Shown one piece after another: positions 1,391 through 49,913 of a stretch of DNA of 50,364 nucleotides. Under the pieces are notes generated by a model that was not told the origin of the DNA, made no database searches, and saw only the letters and a program-made list of their open reading frames with translations. The DNA lies in contig JAILMH010000058.1 of the NCBI GenBank assembly GCA_024692715.1, forward strand, positions 1-50,364. The letters run 5' to 3'. Positions within the stretch are counted from its first letter, which is position 1. The number at the start of each line of letters is the position of its first letter. The stretch comes from Lachnospiraceae bacterium (lineage in GTDB: Bacteria > Bacillota > Clostridia > Lachnospirales > Lachnospiraceae). The position numbers were made by a program, and so were the translations under genes.

Positions 1391-2626
1391 ATGGCATTAA
1401 ATAAAAAGACTGTTGATGATTTCAACGCAGCAGGAAGAAGAGTCCTTGTAAGATGTGACTTTAATGTACCTCTTAAGGACGGTAAGATCACTGATGAGAC
1501 ACGTATCAAGGCTGCACTTCCTACAATCGAGAAGCTTGTTAAGGATGGCGCTAAGGTTATCCTTTGCTCACACCTTGGTAAGGTAAAGAACGGCCCTAAC
1601 GAAGGTGAGTCTCTTGCACCAGTTGCAAAGGCACTTTCAGAGAAGCTCGGCAAGGAAGTTAACTTCGTTGCTGACTACAATGTAACAGGCGAAGCTGCAA
1701 CTAAGGCTGTAGCTGATATGAAGGCAGGAGATGTTGTTCTTCTTCAGAATACTCGTTTCAGAGGTAAAGAAGAGACAAAGCCTCAGGATGCCGGTGAAGC
1801 TTTCGCAAAAGAGCTTGCAGATCTCTGCGATGACTATGTTTGTGATGCTTTTGGTTCTGCTCACAGAGCACACGCTTCTGTAGCTGTAGTTACAAAGTAT
1901 GTTCGTGAAAAGGGCGGAAACTGTGCAGTAGGTTACCTTATGCAGAAGGAGATCAAGTTCCTTGGCAACGCTGTTGAGAACCCTGTTCGTCCTTTCGTAG
2001 CTATCCTTGGTGGCGCTAAGGTTGCTGATAAGCTTGCAGTTATCGATAACCTCCTTTCAAAGTGTGATACTCTTATCATCGGTGGTGGTATGGCTTACAC
2101 ATTTGTTAAGGCTCAGGGCGGAAAGATCGGTAACTCACTTGTTGACGATACAAAGCTTGACTACTGTAAGGAAATGATCGCTAAGGCTGAGAAGCTTGGT
2201 AAGAAGCTTCTTCTTCCTGAGGATACAGTTGTAGCTGATGGATTCCCGAATCCTATCGACGATCCTAACCTTAAGGTTGAGGTTTGCGCTTCAAATGCTA
2301 TCCCTGACGGCAAGGAAGGTCTTGATATCGGACCTAAGACAAGAGACGTATTTGCAGAGGCTGTAAGAAGCGCTAAGACAGTTGTTTGGAACGGACCTAT
2401 GGGCGTTTCGGAGAACCCTGTTCTTGCTGATGGTACAATCGCTGTTGCTAAGGCTCTTGCTGAGACAGATGCTACAACAATCATCGGTGGTGGTGATTCA
2501 GCAGCTGCTGTAAACAACCTTGGTTTTGGTGATAAGATGAGCCACATCTCAACAGGTGGCGGTGCATCACTTGAGTTCCTTGAGGGTAAGGAGCTTCCAG
2601 GCGTTTACGCTGCAGATGATATGTAA
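1391..2626 (+). CDS. pgk: Phosphoglycerate kinase
   Basis: It transfers the acyl phosphate of 1,3-bisphosphoglycerate to ADP in the first ATP-yielding step of glycolysis. The 411-residue protein is slightly longer than the common ~395. Recognisable blocks are the N-terminal substrate region (VRCDFNVPL and SHLGK), the hinge-side LGGAKVADK, and the C-terminal nucleotide region ([10 protein letters not shown] and GGGDSAAAV). AAGGAGG lies six bases before the ATG. It sits between gap and tpiA, so three consecutive glycolytic steps are encoded together. Codon bias matches gap. Confidence 0.98.
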
Positions 2627-2648
2627 TAAATGAGGTGAGAAGACCATA

Positions 2649-2676
2649 ATCTGAGTCTGCTTATGCAGATTCAGAT
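2649..2676 (+). other. Intercistronic stem-loop between pgk and tpiA
   Basis: A 12-bp stem (2649-2660 with 2665-2676, one G-U pair) closes a TTAT loop. No T-run follows, so it is more likely an mRNA stability or processing element than a terminator. Confidence 0.5.
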
Positions 2677-2725
2677 CTGTGGCTTTTATCCTAATGTTTT
2701 GTGATTAGTGAAAGGAAATATTAAA

Positions 2726-3472
2726 ATGGCAAGAAGAAGAATTATTGCTGGTAACTGGAAGATGAACATGACTCCAAGCCAGGCAGTTGAGCTTTGCGCA
2801 ACACTTAAGGACCTTGTAAAGAACGATGCAGTTGACGTAGTATACTGCGTACCTGCAATCGATATCGTTCCTGTAGCAGAGGCAATCAAGGGAACAAACG
2901 TAAACCTTGGTGCTGAGAACTTCTACATCGAGGACAAGGGTGCTTTCACAGGTGAGATCTCAGCTCCTATGCTTAAGGATGCTGGCGTTAAGTACATCAT
3001 CATCGGTCACTCTGAGAGAAGAGATATCTTCGGTGAGAATGATATCCTCATCAATCAGAAGGTTAAGAAGGCATTTGCTGCCGGCCTTACACCTATTCTT
3101 TGCTGTGGTGAGTCACTTGCTCTTCGTGAGGCAGGAACATATGCTGAGTGGATCAAGAGACAGATCTCTTGGGCTCTTACAGATGTAACAGCTGATCAGG
3201 TTAAGGAACTTGTTATCGCTTACGAGCCAATTTGGGCTATCGGAACAGGTAAGACAGCTACAGCTGATCAGGCTCAGGAAGTATGTAAGCTCATCCGTGA
3301 TCACATCGCTGCTATGTATGATACAGATACAGCTGAGGCTGTTCGTATCCAGTACGGCGGATCTATGAACGCAGGTAACGCTGCTGAGCTTCTCAGCAAG
3401 CCTGATATCGATGGCGGTCTTATCGGTGGTGCTTCACTTAAGGCTGACTTCGGCAAGATTGTTAACGCTTAA
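2726..3472 (+). CDS. tpiA: Triosephosphate isomerase
   Basis: It interconverts dihydroxyacetone phosphate and glyceraldehyde-3-phosphate. The 248-residue protein is the normal TIM-barrel length. The catalytic set is visible: NWKMN near residue 10 (lysine), IGHSERR near 95 (histidine), [11 protein letters not shown] near 165 (glutamate), and the phosphate-binding YGGSM and GGASL segments near the end. I chose the ATG at 2726 because GAAAGGA lies just upstream; an in-frame GTG at 2708 lacks a ribosome site and would add six unusual residues. It is last in the glycolytic cluster and is followed by a good terminator. Confidence 0.97.
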
Positions 3473-3539
3473 TTTTTATTAAGATTATCGTAGCCGGGAA
3501 TTATCCCGAATAAATTAATTGTGTCCAGACGTAAAGAAA

Positions 3540-3571
3540 GCGGGAATCCATACAGGGTTCCCGCTTTTTTG
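3540..3571 (+). terminator. Intrinsic terminator after tpiA
   Basis: GCGGGAA pairs with TTCCCGC around an 11-nt loop and is followed at once by TTTTTT. Confidence 0.85.
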
Positions 3572-3667
3572 TGGAAGATTGGGAGCGTATATATGGTGTA
3601 TTTAGCAGGATTTCAGAAAGACGATAGTGAAAATATAAATTTTTTTTAATAAAATTCATCAAAAGTA

Positions 3668-3697
3668 TTGACACATATGTTATATAAGTGGTATATT
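3668..3697 (+). promoter_or_regulatory. Promoter of the tRNA cluster
   Basis: A perfect -35 TTGACA (3668-3673) and a -10 TATATT (3692-3697) are separated by 18 bp, about 50 nt before the first tRNA. Confidence 0.75.
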
Positions 3698-3750
3698 ATC
3701 ACCGTTGCGTCGCACGAAAGAAACCCAGAGCGATAAGACATTAAAGATAT

Positions 3751-3823
3751 GGGATCTTAGCTCAGCTGGGAGAGCATCTGCCTTACAAGCAGAGGGTCAC
3801 AGGTTCGAGCCCTGTAGGTCCCA
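3751..3823 (+). tRNA. tRNA-Val (anticodon TAC), copy 1
   Basis: A 73-nt cloverleaf. The acceptor arms GGGATCT/AGGTCCC pair with one G-U. The anticodon loop CTTACAA carries TAC, the T-loop is GGTTCGAGCC, and the discriminator is A. CCA is not encoded, so it must be added after transcription. Confidence 0.96.
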
Positions 3824-3835
3824 TCAATTAAATAT

Positions 3836-3909
3836 GGCGAAGTAGCTCAGTTGGCTAGAGCACACGGTTCATACCCGTGGTGTCGAGAGTTCGAATCTCC
3901 CCTTCGCTA
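3836..3909 (+). tRNA. tRNA-Met (anticodon CAT), elongator type, copy 1
   Basis: A 74-nt cloverleaf with acceptor arms GGCGAAG/CTTCGCT, anticodon loop TTCATAC and T-loop GTTCGAATC. The anticodon arm resembles Bacillus elongator tRNA-Met rather than the initiator, which would carry a GGG/CCC anticodon stem. A lysidine-modified tRNA-Ile2 also reads CAT and is a less likely alternative. CCA is not encoded. Confidence 0.9.
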
Positions 3910-3913
3910 TTAT

Positions 3914-3986
3914 GGGATCTTAGCTCAGCTGGGAGAGCATCTGCCTTACAAGCAGAGGGTCACAGGTTCGAGCCCTGTAGGTCCCA
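3914..3986 (+). tRNA. tRNA-Val (anticodon TAC), copy 2
   Basis: Identical over the tRNA body to the copy at 3751-3823. It is the first half of a tandem duplication of the Val-Met pair. Confidence 0.96.
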
Positions 3987-3999
3987 TTTAACTAAATAT

Positions 4000-4073
4000 G
4001 GCGAAGTAGCTCAGTTGGCTAGAGCACACGGTTCATACCCGTGGTGTCGAGAGTTCGAATCTCCCCTTCGCTA
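4000..4073 (+). tRNA. tRNA-Met (anticodon CAT), elongator type, copy 2
   Basis: Identical over the tRNA body to the copy at 3836-3909. It ends the tRNA operon and is followed by a terminator. Confidence 0.9.
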
Positions 4074-4080
4074 CTTAAAG

Positions 4081-4107
4081 AGGATATCCAATCGGATATC
4101 CTTTTTT
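4081..4107 (+). terminator. Terminator of the tRNA operon
   Basis: AGGATATCC, loop AATC, GGATATCCT, then TTTTTT. Confidence 0.85.
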
Positions 4108-4165
4108 TATCGCCATTAAAGGAAACTGTAAATTTCGATATATAGATTTTTAGAATAAACTGTAG

Positions 4166-4345
4166 TACAATAAAATCGCCTTCTGATTCTGGGGAGGAGT
4201 ATTGTGTCAGCAATGGCACGGTATAGGAAGTGTCCGGACTCAAAACTACTTATCCCGCGAACACATTCCTGTCGGGAGGTGTTAAAAAAATAAGATTACC
4301 TCGGAGCACCAGTGTTATGGCGCTTCGGGGTTTAATTTTGCATTA
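4166..4345 (+). promoter_or_regulatory. Candidate promoter and attenuator-like leader of the murL operon, with a possible 29-codon leader peptide
   Basis: A -10 TACAAT (4166-4171) with a weak -35 starts a leader of about 190 nt. GGAGGA (4193-4198) precedes a GTG at 4204 that opens 29 codons ending at 4293. Three competing stems are visible: TCCCG/CGGGA (4253-4257 with 4273-4277), GAGGT/ACCTC (4276-4280 with 4298-4302), and CCTCGGAGC/GCTTCGGGG (4299-4307 with 4322-4330). The last is followed by TTTAATTTT, as in a terminator. The 5' arm of the terminator overlaps the second stem, so the two exclude each other. The inducing signal is unknown; a stand-alone small RNA is the alternative. Confidence 0.4.
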
Positions 4346-4369
4346 TAAGCAATATAGAAAGGCTATACT

Positions 4370-5728
4370 GTGAGTAAATTCGACGAGTTTAGAGAGAGTT
4401 ATAAAACATTTGAGTACAGAGATTATCATTGGAAGCTTGAAGATGGCGTATGTAAAGTGGTCTTTGACTTTGCTATTCCCGGCCTCAGCGAGTTTCATCC
4501 TACATGGGAGTTTCCTGTAGGAAGGGCTGATCTGGATAAAAAGAATATCGCTGATGTTCTTGATGTACTTGTATTTAATCTTGGAATGACAGAAACGATA
4601 AGCTATTACAAGATAACATGTGCGCCTAAGGCAATCGTTAAGTGCGGATATTTAAGTGATTCTGCAGCAGAATGGTGGAGAAAGCTTTATTATAACGGGC
4701 TAGGTGAGTTCATGTACAGAAATGGGATCGAGGTTTCTGAGGATGAGCTTGTGGAAATCGTAAGCGAGGGTGAAAGTTTTCAGAAAATAGAGGACAATAC
4801 TGAATATAAGGGCTTTTTGATTCCTGTCGGCGGTGGAAAAGATTCTGTAGTTTCTCTTGAAGTGCTCAAGGATGAGGATGTTTCGACATACCATATAAAC
4901 AATAATAGTTCGACATTGAATGTGATCGAGGTATTTAATGGCGGAAAGACAGATCTTTGTGCGAAGAGAACACTTGACCAGAATATGCTCGATCTGAATA
5001 AACAGGGATTCCTTAATGGTCATACACCGTTCTCTGCCATAGTGGCATTTTCGTCGTATATTACTGCATTTCTCAATGGTAAGAAGTATATTGCTCTTTC
5101 GAATGAAACAAGTGCAAATGAGTCTACAGTCAAAGGTTCATTCGTAAACCATCAGTATTCAAAGAGCTATGAGTTTGAAAAGGATTTTGACAATTATGTT
5201 CATTCACTTGTATCAAGTGATATCATGTATTTCAGCTTTCTCAGACCACTCGCGGAAATACAGATCGCGGCACTTTTCTCGCAGTATAAGAAATATCACA
5301 GTGTATTCAGAAGCTGCAATGTTGGAAGCAAAAAAGGAATATGGTGCTGTGACTGTCCTAAATGCCTGTTTGTTTATATAATTCTCTCTCCGTTTCTTAA
5401 GGATGAAGAACTTGTAGACATATTTGGTGAAAATCTGCTTGAAAAAGAATCTCTTGATAAGGATTTCAGGGAGCTTTCCGGAATAGATGAAAATAAACCG
5501 TTTGAGTGTGTCGGAACACGCAGTGAGGTGGTTTCGGCTCTTGATAATTTCGTTGAAAAGGGAAGAAAGAGTCTTCTTACTGAGAGATATAAGTCACAGC
5601 TTTCAGGAGATATGTCATCTGTTGCATTATTCCTGAACCGTTGGGAATCAATGAACTATGTACCTGAAGAATATCAGAATAAATTAAGAGAGGCGCTTAA
5701 AAGATGTATCGTGAGCATGAATACCTGA
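4370..5728 (+). CDS. murL: MurL-like UDP-MurNAc-L-Ala-L-Glu epimerase
   Basis: The family, known from Xanthomonas, epimerises the terminal L-Glu of UDP-MurNAc-L-Ala-L-Glu to D-Glu in an ATP-dependent reaction. The 452 residues contain a PP-loop-like ATP motif PVGGGKDSVV at 152-161, NGHTPFSAI at 216-224, SNETSANEST at 244-253 and a cysteine-rich WCCDCPKC at 325-332. A GTG start with AAAGG seven bases upstream is preferred. The 3' end overlaps a MurD-like gene by 25 bp, which is the expected partner. The family call comes from the motif order, length and neighbour. A generic PP-loop ATP pyrophosphatase of other function is the alternative. Confidence 0.85.
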   Translation: MSKFDEFRESYKTFEYRDYHWKLEDGVCKVVFDFAIPGLSEFHPTWEFPVGRADLDKKNIADVLDVLVFNLGMTETISYYKITCAPKAIVKCGYLSDSAAEWWRKLYYNGLGEFMYRNGIEVSEDELVEIVSEGESFQKIEDNTEYKGFLIPVGGGKDSVVSLEVLKDEDVSTYHINNNSSTLNVIEVFNGGKTDLCAKRTLDQNMLDLNKQGFLNGHTPFSAIVAFSSYITAFLNGKKYIALSNETSANESTVKGSFVNHQYSKSYEFEKDFDNYVHSLVSSDIMYFSFLRPLAEIQIAALFSQYKKYHSVFRSCNVGSKKGIWCCDCPKCLFVYIILSPFLKDEELVDIFGENLLEKESLDKDFRELSGIDENKPFECVGTRSEVVSALDNFVEKGRKSLLTERYKSQLSGDMSSVALFLNRWESMNYVPEEYQNKLREALKRCIVSMNT

Positions 5729-6900
5729 ACGGAAAGAAAATTTTAATTTGGGGATATGGAAGAGAGGGTAGAGCTACTGAGCGTTTTTTAAAGAAATTCT
5801 GCCCGGACTCAAGTTATGACATTTTTGAAGGAAAGCGTGAGGAAGTAAAAGCCGACGAGTATGATTATATATTTGTCAGCCCGGGTATCCCTTTTGAAGA
5901 AGAAAATCCTAAGTTCACTTCTGAAACCCAGGTATTTCTTGAGGCTTTCAGGGACAGGACAGTTGGAATAACAGGTACAAAGGGAAAGAGCACAACGAGC
6001 TCTCTTCTTTATACTGCGCTTAAGAAATGCCTCAAGGGTAAGGCATGTCTTGTTGGAAATATTTCAGTTCCGTGCCTTGATTACTATGAGGAGATGCTCG
6101 AAAATCCGGAAGAAGTTGCAGTGTTTGAACTTTCATGTCATCAGTGTGACCGTTTGACGGTTTCTCCGCATGTTGCTGTTTTCTTAAATCTTTATGAAGA
6201 TCATCTCGACAGATATAAGACAGAAGAGCGCTACTTTCAGGCAAAAAAGGGCATTACAAGGAATCAGAAAACAGAGGATGTTTTTTATGTTGGCGAAGAA
6301 GTTCCAAATTATACTGTAAATTCGCTTAAAAAAGTAATATCATTTAATGATGTCGGAAAATTTGAGCTTGGAATACCGGGTGAACACAACCAGTATAATG
6401 CAGAATTTGTGAAGAGAATCGCATGCGATGAGTTTGGATGCGATGAAGCTGAAGTCAGAGAAGCATTGAAGAGCTTTAACGGACTTCCTCACAGACTCGA
6501 GTTCGCCGGAGAATATAATGGCATTCGCTATTATGATGATTCAATTTCGACAATTCCCGAAGCTGCCATCAGTGCATGCGAAAGTATACCTGATGTAAAG
6601 ACTATTCTTCTTGGAGGAATGGACCGACATATAGATTATAACGTACTGACGAGATTTATCCCTAAACATCCGGAGATCAATTTTATATGCTCTTACGATG
6701 CCGGAAGACGTATATATGATGAGACAAAGATGTGTCCAAACCTGTATTACAAACCCGATCTTGCTGAGGCAGTAGCACTTGCAAAAAAGATAACTCCTAA
6801 AGGAGGCGCATGTGTACTTTCTCCTGCAGCGGCTTCTTATGGTTATTTTAAGAACTTTGAGGAGCGTGGTGATGTATTTAAAGGGTTGGTTGCCAATTGA
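5704..6900 (+). CDS. murD2: MurD2-like UDP-MurNAc-L-alanine--L-glutamate ligase
   Basis: A Mur ligase of 398 residues, shorter than the usual ~450 of MurD. The N-terminal dinucleotide-like fold has IWGYGREGR at 15-23. The ATP loop GTKGKSTT is at 91-98 and LYEDHLDRY at 163-171. Lysines 181-182 are in the place of the carbamylated lysine, and GLPHRLE is at 260-266. The usual MurD substrate motif DSKATN, whose lysine contacts D-Glu, is replaced by DSISTI (279-284). That fits a ligase that accepts L-Glu, as in the MurD2 subfamily. It overlaps murL upstream, and its stop codon overlaps the next start. Whether a classical murD and murI also exist in the genome cannot be seen. Confidence 0.85.
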   Translation: MYREHEYLNGKKILIWGYGREGRATERFLKKFCPDSSYDIFEGKREEVKADEYDYIFVSPGIPFEEENPKFTSETQVFLEAFRDRTVGITGTKGKSTTSSLLYTALKKCLKGKACLVGNISVPCLDYYEEMLENPEEVAVFELSCHQCDRLTVSPHVAVFLNLYEDHLDRYKTEERYFQAKKGITRNQKTEDVFYVGEEVPNYTVNSLKKVISFNDVGKFELGIPGEHNQYNAEFVKRIACDEFGCDEAEVREALKSFNGLPHRLEFAGEYNGIRYYDDSISTIPEAAISACESIPDVKTILLGGMDRHIDYNVLTRFIPKHPEINFICSYDAGRRIYDETKMCPNLYYKPDLAEAVALAKKITPKGGACVLSPAAASYGYFKNFEERGDVFKGLVAN

Positions 6901-8495
6901 GTGCTAAGAGCGTATTAAAACAAATTTTTGGTTATGATAGTTTTAGAAATGGTCAGGAACAGCTTGTAAACGCGGTAAATGAGGGCAAAGATGTACTGGC
7001 TGTCATGCCGACAGGCGCCGGAAAGTCTATCTGCTTTCAGGTTCCGGCACTTATGTCAGATGGCATTACGCTGGTGATCTCACCGCTGATATCGCTGATG
7101 AGAGATCAGGTCAGTGCTCTTAATGCAGCAGGCGTACATGCAGCATATTTTAATAGCTCACTTACTCCTGGTCAGTATACAAAAGCACTTGGAATAGCAA
7201 AGACCGGATTATATAAGCTTATCTATGTGGCACCGGAGAGGCTTGATACGGAAAGATTTCTTGACTTTGCCCTTGATCCGGGTGTCAAGATATCGTTTGT
7301 TGCTGTAGATGAGGCACACTGCGTATCGCAGTGGGGACAGGATTTCAGACCAAGTTATCTGAAAATTGCAGATTTTGTCAGAAAATTTAAGAAAAGACCT
7401 GTGGTCGGAGCTTATACCGCTACTGCAACTGCTGCAGTAAAGGAGGATATAGTCAAATTGCTTGAGTTGGATTCTCCGGTATCGGTAACTACAGGCTTTG
7501 ACAGAGATAATCTGTATTTTGCGGTGAAAAAGCCCAGAGATAAATATGCGGCTCTTAAGTTTTATCTGCAGGATAAAGAAGAGGCGATGCCGGGAGCATC
7601 CGGAATAGTCTATTGTCTGACGAGAAAGAATGTAAATCAGGTGGCAGACAGGCTTGAACAGGATGGATTTTCGGTAACAAGGTATCATGCCGGACTTGAT
7701 GAAAAAGTAAGACATGCAAATCAGGAAGATTTCATATCGGGAAATAAGCAGATAATGGTTGCGACAAATGCCTTTGGAATGGGAATTGATAAATCTGATG
7801 TCAGATACGTTGTCCACTATAATATGCCAAAGGATATGGAAAGCTATTATCAGGAGGCCGGAAGAGCAGGACGTGATGGAGACATGGCAGAATGTATCCT
7901 GCTTTATGGAAAAAATGATGTCGGGCTCAATAATTTCCTGATAGAACACAGCAGTGATGATAATGAAGACCTTACAGATGAAGAAAAGAATGTAATACGC
8001 GAACGAGATAAGGAACGACTTAAAAAGATGACATTTTATTGTCACACAAAGTATTGCCTTAGAAGTTATATTCTTAACTATTTTGGAGAAAAAGGTCCTA
8101 AGAATTGCGGTAACTGCTCTGTCTGCCTTAACGAAGCAGAAACTGTAGAGGAACCGCTGTATGTGCCTGAAAATGTTGATGAACCGTATGAAAGAGGATA
8201 CGGCAGCAGAAATATCAGGAAAACCTATGTTTCAGGAAGAAGGAAAAGTGCGGCTGAGAGCCTTGAAGAAGGCGATAAGAGGATATTTGAAAATCTTCGT
8301 GCACTCAGAACGCAGATCGCAAAGGAAAGCAGGTTGCATCCATATATCATTTTTTCTGACAGAACACTTGCATATATGGCTGTCGAAAGGCCCCGTACAA
8401 AGGAAGAAATGCTTAAAATAAGCGGAGTAGGCCAGTATAAATACGAGAAGTACGGCGACCGTTTTTTGAAAGTGTTAAATGAAGCTTATTATTAA
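6897..8495 (+). CDS. recQ: ATP-dependent DNA helicase RecQ
   Basis: A 3'-5' superfamily 2 helicase of recombination and fork repair. The 532 residues contain Walker A MPTGAGKSICFQ near 39-50, the DEAH box VDEAHCVSQWG near 138-148, motif VI YYQEAGRAGRDG near 320, a zinc-binding RQC segment with four cysteines around 385-410, and a C-terminal HRDC-like region from about 455. It is shorter than E. coli RecQ (about 610) because the middle RQC part is compact. The TTG start shares bases with the murD2 stop (TTGA), so translation is probably coupled. The link to cell-wall genes looks positional only. Confidence 0.93.
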   Translation: MSAKSVLKQIFGYDSFRNGQEQLVNAVNEGKDVLAVMPTGAGKSICFQVPALMSDGITLVISPLISLMRDQVSALNAAGVHAAYFNSSLTPGQYTKALGIAKTGLYKLIYVAPERLDTERFLDFALDPGVKISFVAVDEAHCVSQWGQDFRPSYLKIADFVRKFKKRPVVGAYTATATAAVKEDIVKLLELDSPVSVTTGFDRDNLYFAVKKPRDKYAALKFYLQDKEEAMPGASGIVYCLTRKNVNQVADRLEQDGFSVTRYHAGLDEKVRHANQEDFISGNKQIMVATNAFGMGIDKSDVRYVVHYNMPKDMESYYQEAGRAGRDGDMAECILLYGKNDVGLNNFLIEHSSDDNEDLTDEEKNVIRERDKERLKKMTFYCHTKYCLRSYILNYFGEKGPKNCGNCSVCLNEAETVEEPLYVPENVDEPYERGYGSRNIRKTYVSGRRKSAAESLEEGDKRIFENLRALRTQIAKESRLHPYIIFSDRTLAYMAVERPRTKEEMLKISGVGQYKYEKYGDRFLKVLNEAYY

Positions 8496-8515
8496 ATTAA
8501 GCTTATTTAAAAGAT

Positions 8516-8545
8516 ATTCACATGAGTGAATGAGTGTGTTATAAT
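8516..8545 (+). promoter_or_regulatory. Promoter of pyk with an inverted repeat over the -35
   Basis: -35 TTCACA (8517-8522), 17 bp, -10 TATAAT (8540-8545). ATTCAC and GTGAAT form an inverted repeat with a 4-bp spacer at 8516-8531, covering the -35. This is a candidate operator for an unknown regulator. Confidence 0.55.
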
Positions 8546-8595
8546 GATTCGGTTTGATTTAGAACGGATTTGTTTGTTTAATGAAAGGATTAGTA

Positions 8596-10029
8596 ATGAG
8601 AAAGACCAAAATCGTATGTACCATAGGACCAGCAAGCCAGAGCGAGGATATGCTTCGTAAGCTCATTAAGGCAGGAATGAATGTTGGACGTTTTAACTTT
8701 TCGCATGGTGATTACGAAGAGCATAAGGCAAAGTTTTTGAATCTTAAGAAGATCAGAGTTGAGCTTAACAAGCCAATCGCTACACTTCTTGATACAAAGG
8801 GACCAGAAATTCGTCTTGGTGATTTCAAGGATCACAAGATTCAGCTTAAGCGTGGACAGGAGTTCACTCTTACAACAGACGATATTCTTGGAGATGAGAC
8901 AAAAGCTTCAGTTACTTACAAGGGTCTTGTAAATGACGTTAAAGCCGGCGGAACAATTCTTATTGATGATGGTCTTATCGAACTTCATATTGACAAAGTA
9001 GGTTCAACAGATATCGTATGTACAGTTCTTAATGATGGTCCTGTTTCTGATAAAAAGGGCGTTAACGTACCGGGAACAGATCTTTCAATGCCATTTATCA
9101 GCGAGAAGGACAGACAGGATATCATCTTCGGATGCCGTCTTGGATTTGATATGATCGCTGCTTCATTCACAAGAACAGCTGAAGATATCGTTGAAGTTAG
9201 AAAGCTTATCGAGTCACAGGGCGCAAGCATGAAGATCATTGCTAAGATCGAAAGTGTGCAGGGTGTTAGAAATGTTGAGGAGATCCTCAAGGTTGCTGAT
9301 GGTGTAATGGTTGCTCGTGGAGACCTCGGTGTTGAGATTCCTCTTGAGGAAGTTCCTTCAGTACAGAAGCAGATTATCAAGCTTGCTGAGAAGGCTGGTA
9401 AGCAGGTAATCACAGCTACACAGATGCTTGATTCAATGATCCACAATCCAAGACCTACAAGAGCTGAGACCACTGACGTAGCTAACGCTATCTATGATGG
9501 TACAACAGCGATCATGCTTTCAGGTGAGACTGCTAACGGTGCATACCCTGTTGAAGCTGTTGAGATCATGTCAAGAATCGCTGAGCGTACAGAGAGAGAT
9601 ATCGATTATAAGGAGCGTATGATCAAGCGTTTTGCAGATGTTAATCTTTCAGAGACAACTGATGCAATCTCACACGCAGCTTGCACAATCGCTCAGGATA
9701 TCGATGCTGCAGCAATCATAACAGTAACAATGTCAGGCTTCACAGCTGAGAAGCTTTCAAGATATAAGCCAACATGCCCTATCCTTGCATGTTCACCAGA
9801 GTACAAGGTTGCATGTCAGTCAAATCTTTTATTCGATACATTCGCACTTGTTATTGAGAAGCAGACAAACAGTGCTGATGAACTTATCGATACGGCTGTT
9901 CGCCAGGCTGAGATCTCTGGATATATCAAGGCTGGTGATAAGATCGTTCTTACAGCAGGTATGCCTCTTGGCGTAACTGGAAGAACTAACATGATCCGTG
10001 TTATCGAAGTTGGTAAGGATTTCGGCTGA
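8596..10029 (+). CDS. pyk: Pyruvate kinase
   Basis: It converts PEP and ADP to pyruvate and ATP. The 477-residue form has the A, B and C domains but lacks the extra PEP-utiliser domain found in Bacillus and some Clostridia. Visible motifs are RKTKIVCTIGPAS at the start, NFSHG, LDTKGPEIRLG near 70, the catalytic IAKIESVQG near 220 and the MVARGDLGVE segment near 240. The ATG at 8596 follows GAAAGGA; an upstream in-frame ATG at 8581 lacks a ribosome site. Codon bias is of the highly expressed type. It supplies pyruvate to the PFOR encoded further downstream. Confidence 0.97.
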   Translation: MRKTKIVCTIGPASQSEDMLRKLIKAGMNVGRFNFSHGDYEEHKAKFLNLKKIRVELNKPIATLLDTKGPEIRLGDFKDHKIQLKRGQEFTLTTDDILGDETKASVTYKGLVNDVKAGGTILIDDGLIELHIDKVGSTDIVCTVLNDGPVSDKKGVNVPGTDLSMPFISEKDRQDIIFGCRLGFDMIAASFTRTAEDIVEVRKLIESQGASMKIIAKIESVQGVRNVEEILKVADGVMVARGDLGVEIPLEEVPSVQKQIIKLAEKAGKQVITATQMLDSMIHNPRPTRAETTDVANAIYDGTTAIMLSGETANGAYPVEAVEIMSRIAERTERDIDYKERMIKRFADVNLSETTDAISHAACTIAQDIDAAAIITVTMSGFTAEKLSRYKPTCPILACSPEYKVACQSNLLFDTFALVIEKQTNSADELIDTAVRQAEISGYIKAGDKIVLTAGMPLGVTGRTNMIRVIEVGKDFG

Positions 10030-49640: not shown

Positions 49641-49891
49641 GCGTTACTGTTCACTCGCTTCTAGCTCGCTCACGTAACGGATTTTGCCAATTAAATCGCC
49701 TCCGGCGATGGGCAAAATCCAATGGCCTTTCATCTTTCTTGGTCGTAAACTCCGCAGCGTAGTGCTCCGTTTACGTGTGAACTGTTACGAGGATTGAGAC
49801 CTTTGGACCCGCAAAACTCGAGCAAGTAGCGTTATTACGCGGAATGCGAGTGTTTTAGGATTGCGGGAATTGCGTAGCAATGAAGCAATCC
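49641..49891. repeat. Array of five hairpins, candidate mobile or repeated palindromic element
   Basis: The 416-bp gap after pheT holds no gene; it holds this array and a terminator. Stems: CGTTAC/GTAACG (49642-49679); GGATTTTGCC/GGCAAAATCC enclosing ATCGCC/GGCGAT (49679-49720); CGTAAAC/GTTTACG enclosing GCA/TGC (49744-49775); AAAACTCG with CGAGTGTTTT enclosing GCGT/ACGC (49813-49856); and GGATTGC/GCAATCC enclosing ATTGC/GCAAT (49858-49891). Nested perfect arms without coding capacity suggest a repeated palindromic element or a structured RNA. I see no clear target-site duplication. Confidence 0.5.
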
Positions 49892-49913
49892 GTGACATCA
49901 AATAGGTAAGAAC

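Follow-up and report, generated by a model that had tools for sequence, protein, structure and literature searches.

The canonical supply of D-glutamate (D-Glu) for the bacterial cell wall joins the glutamate racemase MurI to the ligase MurD. In Xanthomonas oryzae, which has no MurI, MurD2 and MurL (XOO_1320/XOO_1319) are encoded by adjoining genes, murL first, and the reactions of both enzymes have been measured (PMC8788868, PMC5808125). Measurements on Xanthomonas MurL, a protein without a known domain, showed that it requires ATP and produces AMP, and an adenylate intermediate is the hypothesis of one of these two reviews (PMC8788868, PMC5808125). Their passages on distribution give a range of Gamma- and Alphaproteobacteria and Actinobacteria, with orthologues of low similarity in a fungus, cyanobacteria and an amoeba (PMC8788868, PMC5808125), and one assigns the pathway to a small number of proteobacterial and actinobacterial genera (PMC8788868). 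Here we compare with these systems a murL–murD2 pair from a Lachnospiraceae bacterium (assembly GCA_024692715.1, contig JAILMH010000058.1); the window is the whole stretch of DNA that was analysed, 50,364 nucleotides in length. Judged by gene content, this organism very probably makes its wall D-Glu by the MurD2–MurL route, no other source being visible, and the pathway, in itself a known one, appears to be common where the searched literature does not place it.

In the mechanism that we propose, the MurD2-type ligase would add L-glutamate (L-Glu) to the wall precursor, MurL would then epimerise the attached L-Glu, with its predicted PP-loop carrying out the adenylation, and MurE and MurF would complete the precursor; that the MurL and MurD2 proteins of Bacillota catalyse the same reactions as the Xanthomonas enzymes is something we infer from their sequences. 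The parts of the pair, given as open reading frames (ORFs) and as sites within them, are the following.

4370..5728, forward strand: homologue of MurL, an ORF of 452 amino acids (aa) with a GTG start (NF041275, E 2.2e-79; structural model with a mean predicted local distance difference test score, pLDDT, of 92.9)
4829..4846, forward strand: GGGKDS, MurL residues 154-159, a proposed PP-loop (from conservation, the model and a match to TtuA PH0300)
5315..5365, forward strand: C316 together with the WCxxCxKC cysteines C326, C329 and C332, a putative metal site (from conservation)
5345-5365, forward strand: CCDCPKC, MurL residues 326-332
5704..6900, forward strand: murD2-type ligase, an ORF of 398 aa with an ATG start (TIGR01087; model nearest to 2uag)
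6199..6201, forward strand: ligase Asp166, at the site of E. coli D182 and X. oryzae E197, where the classical residue is retained (from alignment)
6538..6555, forward strand: DSISTI, ligase residues 279-284, with Ile281 at the site of E. coli MurD K319 (from alignment)
6625..6627, forward strand: ligase Arg308, at the site of E. coli K348 and X. oryzae R358 (from alignment)

A preliminary description of this DNA had singled out the GGGKDS, CCDCPKC and DSISTI motifs and an overlap of 25 bp between the two genes, and all were found again at these ORFs, the bases in common being 5704-5728.

The source genome (G000; 2.09 Mb in 79 contigs, 90.5% complete) holds five genes of the Mur ligase type, namely MurF, MurE, MurC and FolC, each over its NCBIfam cut-off, and the window ligase, which is the only gene over the murD cut-off; no second MurD was found in this genome. 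Searches of it for an Asp/Glu racemase of any kind (PF01177) and for MurI (TIGR00067) gave no match. Its one aminotransferase-IV protein is over the cut-off as a branched-chain aminotransferase and reaches 23 bits against the D-amino-acid transaminase model, for which the cut-off is 277. A D-amino-acid transaminase route was rejected, there being no match over the cut-off in 25 genomes; this threshold is a strict one, exceeded in 1 of 14 control genomes, and one family genome (G128) has a match that is strong yet below it (200 against 277 bits). The preliminary proposal that the organism uses MurD2–MurL, which had asked for a look at murI and a classical murD in the genome, can therefore be sharpened to the only visible route, as neither gene was found and as no Asp/Glu racemase or D-amino-acid transaminase stands over its cut-off either. 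Its further suggestion of a condition-specific wall pathway is unlikely, since the pair holds the only MurD seen.

The occurrence of MurL and MurI was then compared in a family sample of 150 Lachnospiraceae genomes from 149 genera, in which MurL is present in 12 and MurI over the cut-off in 126, and never both: no MurL genome has such a MurI, as against 126 of the 138 others (Fisher p 1.6e-11). Two of the MurL genomes, G116 and G135, give TIGR00067 matches far under the cut-off, and 12 of the 138 genomes without MurL also have no MurI over it. Beyond this sample the window pair proved to be no single odd copy, as at least 579 stretches in named genomes encode relatives; the best 80 were kept, a choice that favours close relatives. 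The MurI search covered the genomes of 50 of these 80 loci, the other 30 being mostly Lachnospiraceae metagenome-assembled genomes (MAGs), and found MurI over the cut-off in none of the 50.

A murD gene lies downstream of murL on the same strand at 79 of the 80 named loci, and at the eightieth (L073) the contig ends 45 bases past murL. By spacings that depend on estimated start codons, 45 of the 78 unfused pairs overlap and 62 are within 40 nt; at L069, L071 and L072 the two genes are 2.7 kb apart with two ORFs between them, one of which looks like an L,D-transpeptidase. In a sheep rumen MAG (L074, 3180-5756) MurL and MurD2 share a single ORF of 859 aa, which may have arisen by fusion in nature or may reflect a sequencing error where two genes overlap. 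All 12 MurL genomes of the family sample have a murD over the cut-off beside MurL (3 kb off in G116), and two of them, G111 and G119, hold a classical MurD in addition to the ligase linked to MurL. In Butyrivibrio fibrisolvens 16/4 (L086, 2-2339), genes read from the sequence as MurF-like and D-Ala-D-Ala-ligase-like stand within 6 kb of murL–murD2.

By profile the window ligase is a MurD, with 248.5 bits against TIGR01087 (cut-off 211.95), and its AlphaFold model (pLDDT 94.9) has E. coli MurD as its nearest structure (2uag, E 8.3e-28). In profile and predicted fold it is thus like the ligase of the canonical MurI and MurD system, from which this organism differs by a genome without MurI and by a ligase with Ile in place of K319 and Arg in place of K348. 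Alignment to MurD of E. coli sets Lys319, within the E. coli sequence DSKATN, against Ile281, Lys348 against Arg308 and Asp182 against Asp166. Ile at the first site and Arg at the second are found in all 79 named MurL-linked ligases, in 11/11 other MurL-linked ligases of the family, in the window and in Xanthomonas sacchari (some genomes are counted in two of these sets, G116/L069 and G135/L080 for example), whereas classical MurDs have Lys at both sites (9/9). The site of X. oryzae E197 is more variable: 53 of the 79 named ligases have Glu there and 26 have Asp, and X. sacchari has Glu. E197 was rejected as an obligatory mark of MurD2, being absent in the window and in 26/79 named relatives. 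In X. oryzae MurD2 the exchanges E197D and R358K each alter the enzyme and the double exchange makes it a D-Glu ligase, E. coli MurD K319T accepts L-Glu, and the MurD of Streptococcus mutans uses D-Glu in spite of an Arg at the K348 site (PMC8788868). Read against these results, the window ligase agrees with L-Glu use at two of the three chirality sites but not at the third, and because the residue of E197 is missing our claim is that the ligase would work like MurD2. One MurD2 of the family (L027, 1393-2874, in G052) has a C-terminal extension that carries a cysteine-rich CPCC stretch.

The NCBIfam model of MurL, NF041275, matches residues 8-439 of the first protein over nearly the full length of the model, with 267 bits; the family profiles asked for in the preliminary description have with this been searched for both proteins. 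The curated cut-off of 700 bits is that of a Xanthomonadales equivalog and the window MurL lies below it, for which reason we class the protein as a homologue of the wider family and not as that equivalog. For comparison, the annotated MurL of X. sacchari scores 836, and the scores of Lachnospiraceae KH1T2, B. fibrisolvens 16/4 and a Bacteroidales MAG are 266, 243 and 248; a Pseudonocardia plasmid homologue of unknown function is likewise under the cut-off with 323 bits. Identity between the window and X. sacchari proteins is 32% over 85% of the query. Across 81 MurL sequences (the 80 named loci and the window) 70 residues are invariant, among them G154-S159, C316, C326 and C332, while C329 is Cys in 80/81 and C327 of the CCDCPKC cluster is outside the invariant set. 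The annotated X. sacchari MurL is identical at 57 of the 70, with the loop, the cysteines and PFECVG in common, and all four cysteines (C316, C326, C329, C332) are kept in X. sacchari and in Pseudonocardia, a conservation that suggests that they may bind metal.

In the AlphaFold model of the window MurL the GGGKDS loop is placed between a strand (149-152) and a helix (157-165). The best Foldseek match in the PDB is chain B of 9y02, a QatB–QatC complex (E 2.7e-3, probability 1.00, template modelling (TM) scores 0.41/0.43), which we take to be probably QatC, a QueC-like protein; the sulfur transferase TtuA comes after it and TrmU is at rank 17. A profile search gives TtuA PH0300 an E of 6e-4 for the whole chain and of 0.011 for the GGGKDS stretch alone. 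MurL resembles these PP-loop ATPases in its predicted fold and its loop of GGxDS type, and differs from them in that the similarity is weak (best E 2.7e-3), that no sequence family is matched and that the substrate is another one. The fold is accordingly given as a predicted PP-loop fold, consistent with the reviewed chemistry of MurL, in which ATP is needed, AMP is made and an adenylate has been proposed. Assignment to another PP-loop family, which the preliminary description had named as a thing to check, was rejected, as no such match was found in Pfam (up to E 10), NCBIfam or PADLOC and only MurL profiles match the protein. Taken as a whole, the pair shares with the Xanthomonas system the adjoining genes in the order murL first, the lack of MurI and, as checked in X. 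sacchari, the loop, the cysteines and the exchange of K319 for Ile and of K348 for Arg, and departs from it by Asp in place of Glu at the E197 site, by a MurL score far below the NF041275 cut-off, by its Lachnospiraceae host and by its activity, which is predicted here and measured there.

Within the genus of the window the two routes could be followed more closely. A DNA search with window 1391-10029 as the query was made in 48 genomes, 6 candidate stretches being scored per genome, and the murL region was matched, among the matches listed, in seven: G000, G153, G171, G172, G177, G187 and G188. Absence of murL from the remaining genomes of the genus is provisional. Two of the seven, KH1T2 (G177, L060) and MA2020 (G153, L061), are counted in both the genus and the named sets. 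In a MurI test of 30 genomes none of the seven MurL genomes is over the cut-off, as against 20 of the 23 others (p 5.9e-5); G158, G186 and G189 have neither MurI over the cut-off nor a murL DNA match. In a tree built from pgk and tpi for 21 selected genomes the seven MurL genomes form one clade (100/100), beside which stands a MurI clade of G150, G152, G178 and G195 (99.4/97), and G158 and G189 form a clade of their own. The order murL-murD2-recQ-pyk is common to the window and the four congeners compared (G153, G172, KH1T2 and G188), whereas recQ and pyk are on separate contigs in G150, a genome with MurI. The simplest history would be that MurL took the place of MurI once, at the origin of the seven-genome clade, a probable and not a settled one given that the tree has two genes and a midpoint root, and given G158 and G189. 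Of the transfer proposed in the preliminary description, a swap of routes within the genus is thus seen in the tree and in the MurI test, and its direction is one that we only infer.

Several observations weigh against MurD2–MurL as the sole route. The source genome is only 90.5% complete, the window MurL (267 bits) does not reach the curated cut-off of 700, none of its Foldseek matches is at E 0.001 with the best TM-score at about 0.4, and the ligase has Asp166 at the E197 site, though E197D altered the specificity of X. oryzae MurD2. A PF01177 member is present in 5 of the 12 MurL genomes of the family sample (G029, G094, G116, G135, G137), so that the split is weaker for PF01177 than for MurI (p 3.8e-5); because these proteins fall below the MurI cut-off they may be aspartate-type racemases. 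Among the 50 named MurL genomes searched, 21 have a TIGR00067 match under the cut-off, the highest-scoring one being that of the L125 genome (108 against 146.65 bits), and ligases of the DSIST type occur without an intact MurL in four family genomes (G025, G086, G089, G128).

In the alternative that survives best, the ligase would be a D-Glu or dual-specificity MurD, D-Glu would be taken from neighbours and the MurL-like protein would have another role. The classical residue kept by Asp166 at one chirality site, the D-Glu use of S. mutans MurD with its Arg at the K348 site (PMC8788868), the exogenous D-Glu proposed for a MurI-less species of Roseburia (PMC7478625) and the existence of DSIST-type ligases without MurL all agree with it; we nevertheless consider it improbable, as it leaves unexplained the pairing at 79/80 loci, the Ile that every examined MurL-linked ligase carries at the K319 site and the exclusion of MurI. 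Still less credible is an extra, condition-specific or inhibitor-escape copy, with the main MurI and MurD in the missing ~10% of the genome. A completeness of 90.5% leaves space for this, and G111 and G119 do carry a second, classical MurD, but these two genomes have no PF01177 or TIGR00067 match of any kind, and MurI is also missing from KH1T2 (98% complete), MA2020 (100%) and G172 (99%, 3 contigs), all of the same clade of the genus; a MurI hidden in the missing part was rejected on the ground of such congeners, up to 100% complete, and a classical MurD was sought in G000 only. That MurL is a PP-loop enzyme with a different task, such as nucleotide or tRNA modification, merely adjoining murD, is the least probable of all in spite of its nearest solved folds (the QatB–QatC complex and TtuA), in view of the exclusive match to MurL profiles with no PP-loop family in Pfam (to E 10) or NCBIfam, the 57/70 invariant residues common to Xanthomonas MurL, the conserved pairing and the fused ORF of L074.

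The MurD2–MurL route, which we prefer to these alternatives, is not confined to the genus of the window. A MurL tree of 82 rows, with taxon labels that follow the submitters' titles, contains 71 Bacillota, 7 Bacteroidota, 2 sequences labelled Mycoplasmatota, the window and X. sacchari, and the Bacteroidota proteins form a single clade (100/99). No report of MurL in Bacillota or Bacteroidota was found in the top part of the results of a search of the open PMC literature, and relative to the passages on distribution in the two reviews the pathway is known and its spread in these phyla is new (PMC8788868, PMC5808125). The name 'murL' in a Brachyspira genome paper denotes, where it is used, a glutamate racemase, and was rejected as a precedent (PMC2650404). 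Plasmids as carriers were also rejected, there being four plasmid records with MurL and none from Bacillota; one of the plasmid genes, on pPaSha1 of Pseudonocardia alni (L145, 3001-4401), is MurL-like with no adjoining murD, and two further Pseudonocardia plasmids carry MurL-like genes.

The 12 genomes of the family sample with neither MurL nor MurI over the cut-off, in none of which (0/12) a D-amino-acid transaminase is over its cut-off, fall into different kinds by their MurD, which was recovered in 10. Six of them have a classical MurD (G001, G042, G047, G091, G132 and G146, of which G001 and G146 are 74% and 68% complete). Roseburia intestinalis is likewise described as having no murI, and exogenous D-Glu or an altered wall has been suggested for it (PMC7478625); MurL could not be brought in to explain this case, and these six MurI-less genomes with a classical MurD are also without MurL. 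The other four have the DSIST-type ligases mentioned above, in G025 (L057; genome 99% complete), G086 (L056, 3060-3809, and L167, 9289-10038; 100%), G089 (L058; 95%) and G128 (L059; 69%). The MurL profile found no intact MurL in these four genomes; in G086 it found a shortened MurL without the GGGKDS loop adjoining the ligase, and in G025 an unrelated-looking ORF with SGGKDS (E 0.014).

A further ligase of this kind was found in a congener of the window, G176 (80% complete), where the DNA search matches the ligase part of the query only. It lies at the end of contig C19 (L191, 2281-4473), is 56% identical, has DSISTI and GGMDRG, and continues in frame into a PGA_cap/CapA domain (PF09587, E 8.4e-44), the ORF of 731 aa being open at the contig end. 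The fused domain has matches to MslH (NF038314, E 1.1e-11, far below the cut-off; PDB 8gq9, E 4.5e-9), a metal-dependent epimerase of lasso-peptide C-termini with His88, Asp91 and His295 as catalytic residues (PMC10406935). In the alignment these three are identical, Asp11 is outside it and the metal-site His261 is replaced by Gly; the match of catalytic residues is suggestive only, as such residues are probably common in calcineurin-like folds. This likeness is limited to the fused domain of G176, is unrelated to MurL and has no counterpart in the window. No murL stands beside the ligase on the 4.5 kb of G176 in question, the rest of that genome not having been searched for MurL or MurI, and searches of viral contigs and plasmid records gave no entry that covers 80% of the fused protein. 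The G176 domain finds itself alone among the ORFs of 191 loci, on which ground CapA-like domains near other ligases were rejected. A third wall D-Glu route in the family, with L-Glu-type ligases that lack MurL served by another epimerase (CapA/MslH-like in G176, MslH itself having the equivalent task of epimerising the last residue of a peptide), and with G025, G086 and G089 using such an enzyme elsewhere or keeping L-Glu in the wall, is a tentative idea that we think has rather less than an even chance of being right.

If the reading of the pair is true, many Bacillota and some Bacteroidota, including numerous inhabitants of gut and rumen, would have MurD2–MurL as their sole route to D-Glu, a missing murI could no longer be read as D-Glu auxotrophy, and inhibitors of MurD2 or MurL would hit commensals too. 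Two sister clades of one genus that differ by a MurI/MurL swap offer a way to study how an essential pathway is replaced, the predicted PP-loop would provide the chemistry of MurL with an active site that can be tested, and the fusion of a ligase with an MslH-like domain would be a direct test case for a further D-Glu route.

The window as a whole runs gap-pgk-tpi, tRNAs, murL, murD2, recQ, pyk and a suf-like cluster, the neighbours having been named by NCBIfam, except that pgk was named only through a bifunctional pgk/tpi model below its cut-off and the suf-like cluster by reading. Its further features are these.

3750-4074: a tRNA-Val(tac)/tRNA-Met(cat) pair in two tandem copies, between tpi and murL
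4200-4328: some 110 non-coding bases directly 5' of murL that are near-identical in KH1T2 (L060, about 5795-5925), with diverging flanks
6897..8495, forward strand: recQ, directly after murD2 with no gap (TIGR00614, 449 bits, cut-off 219.8)
49783-49900: a Clostridiales-1 RNA (63 bits against a gathering score of 48)

We know of no role of a recQ adjoining murD2 in the D-Glu pathway. A known RNA element in front of murL was rejected, no Rfam match being found there up to E 1. The conserved stretch, with a fold z-score of -2.1 in the window and of -0.35 in KH1T2, is possibly an unlisted small RNA or leader.

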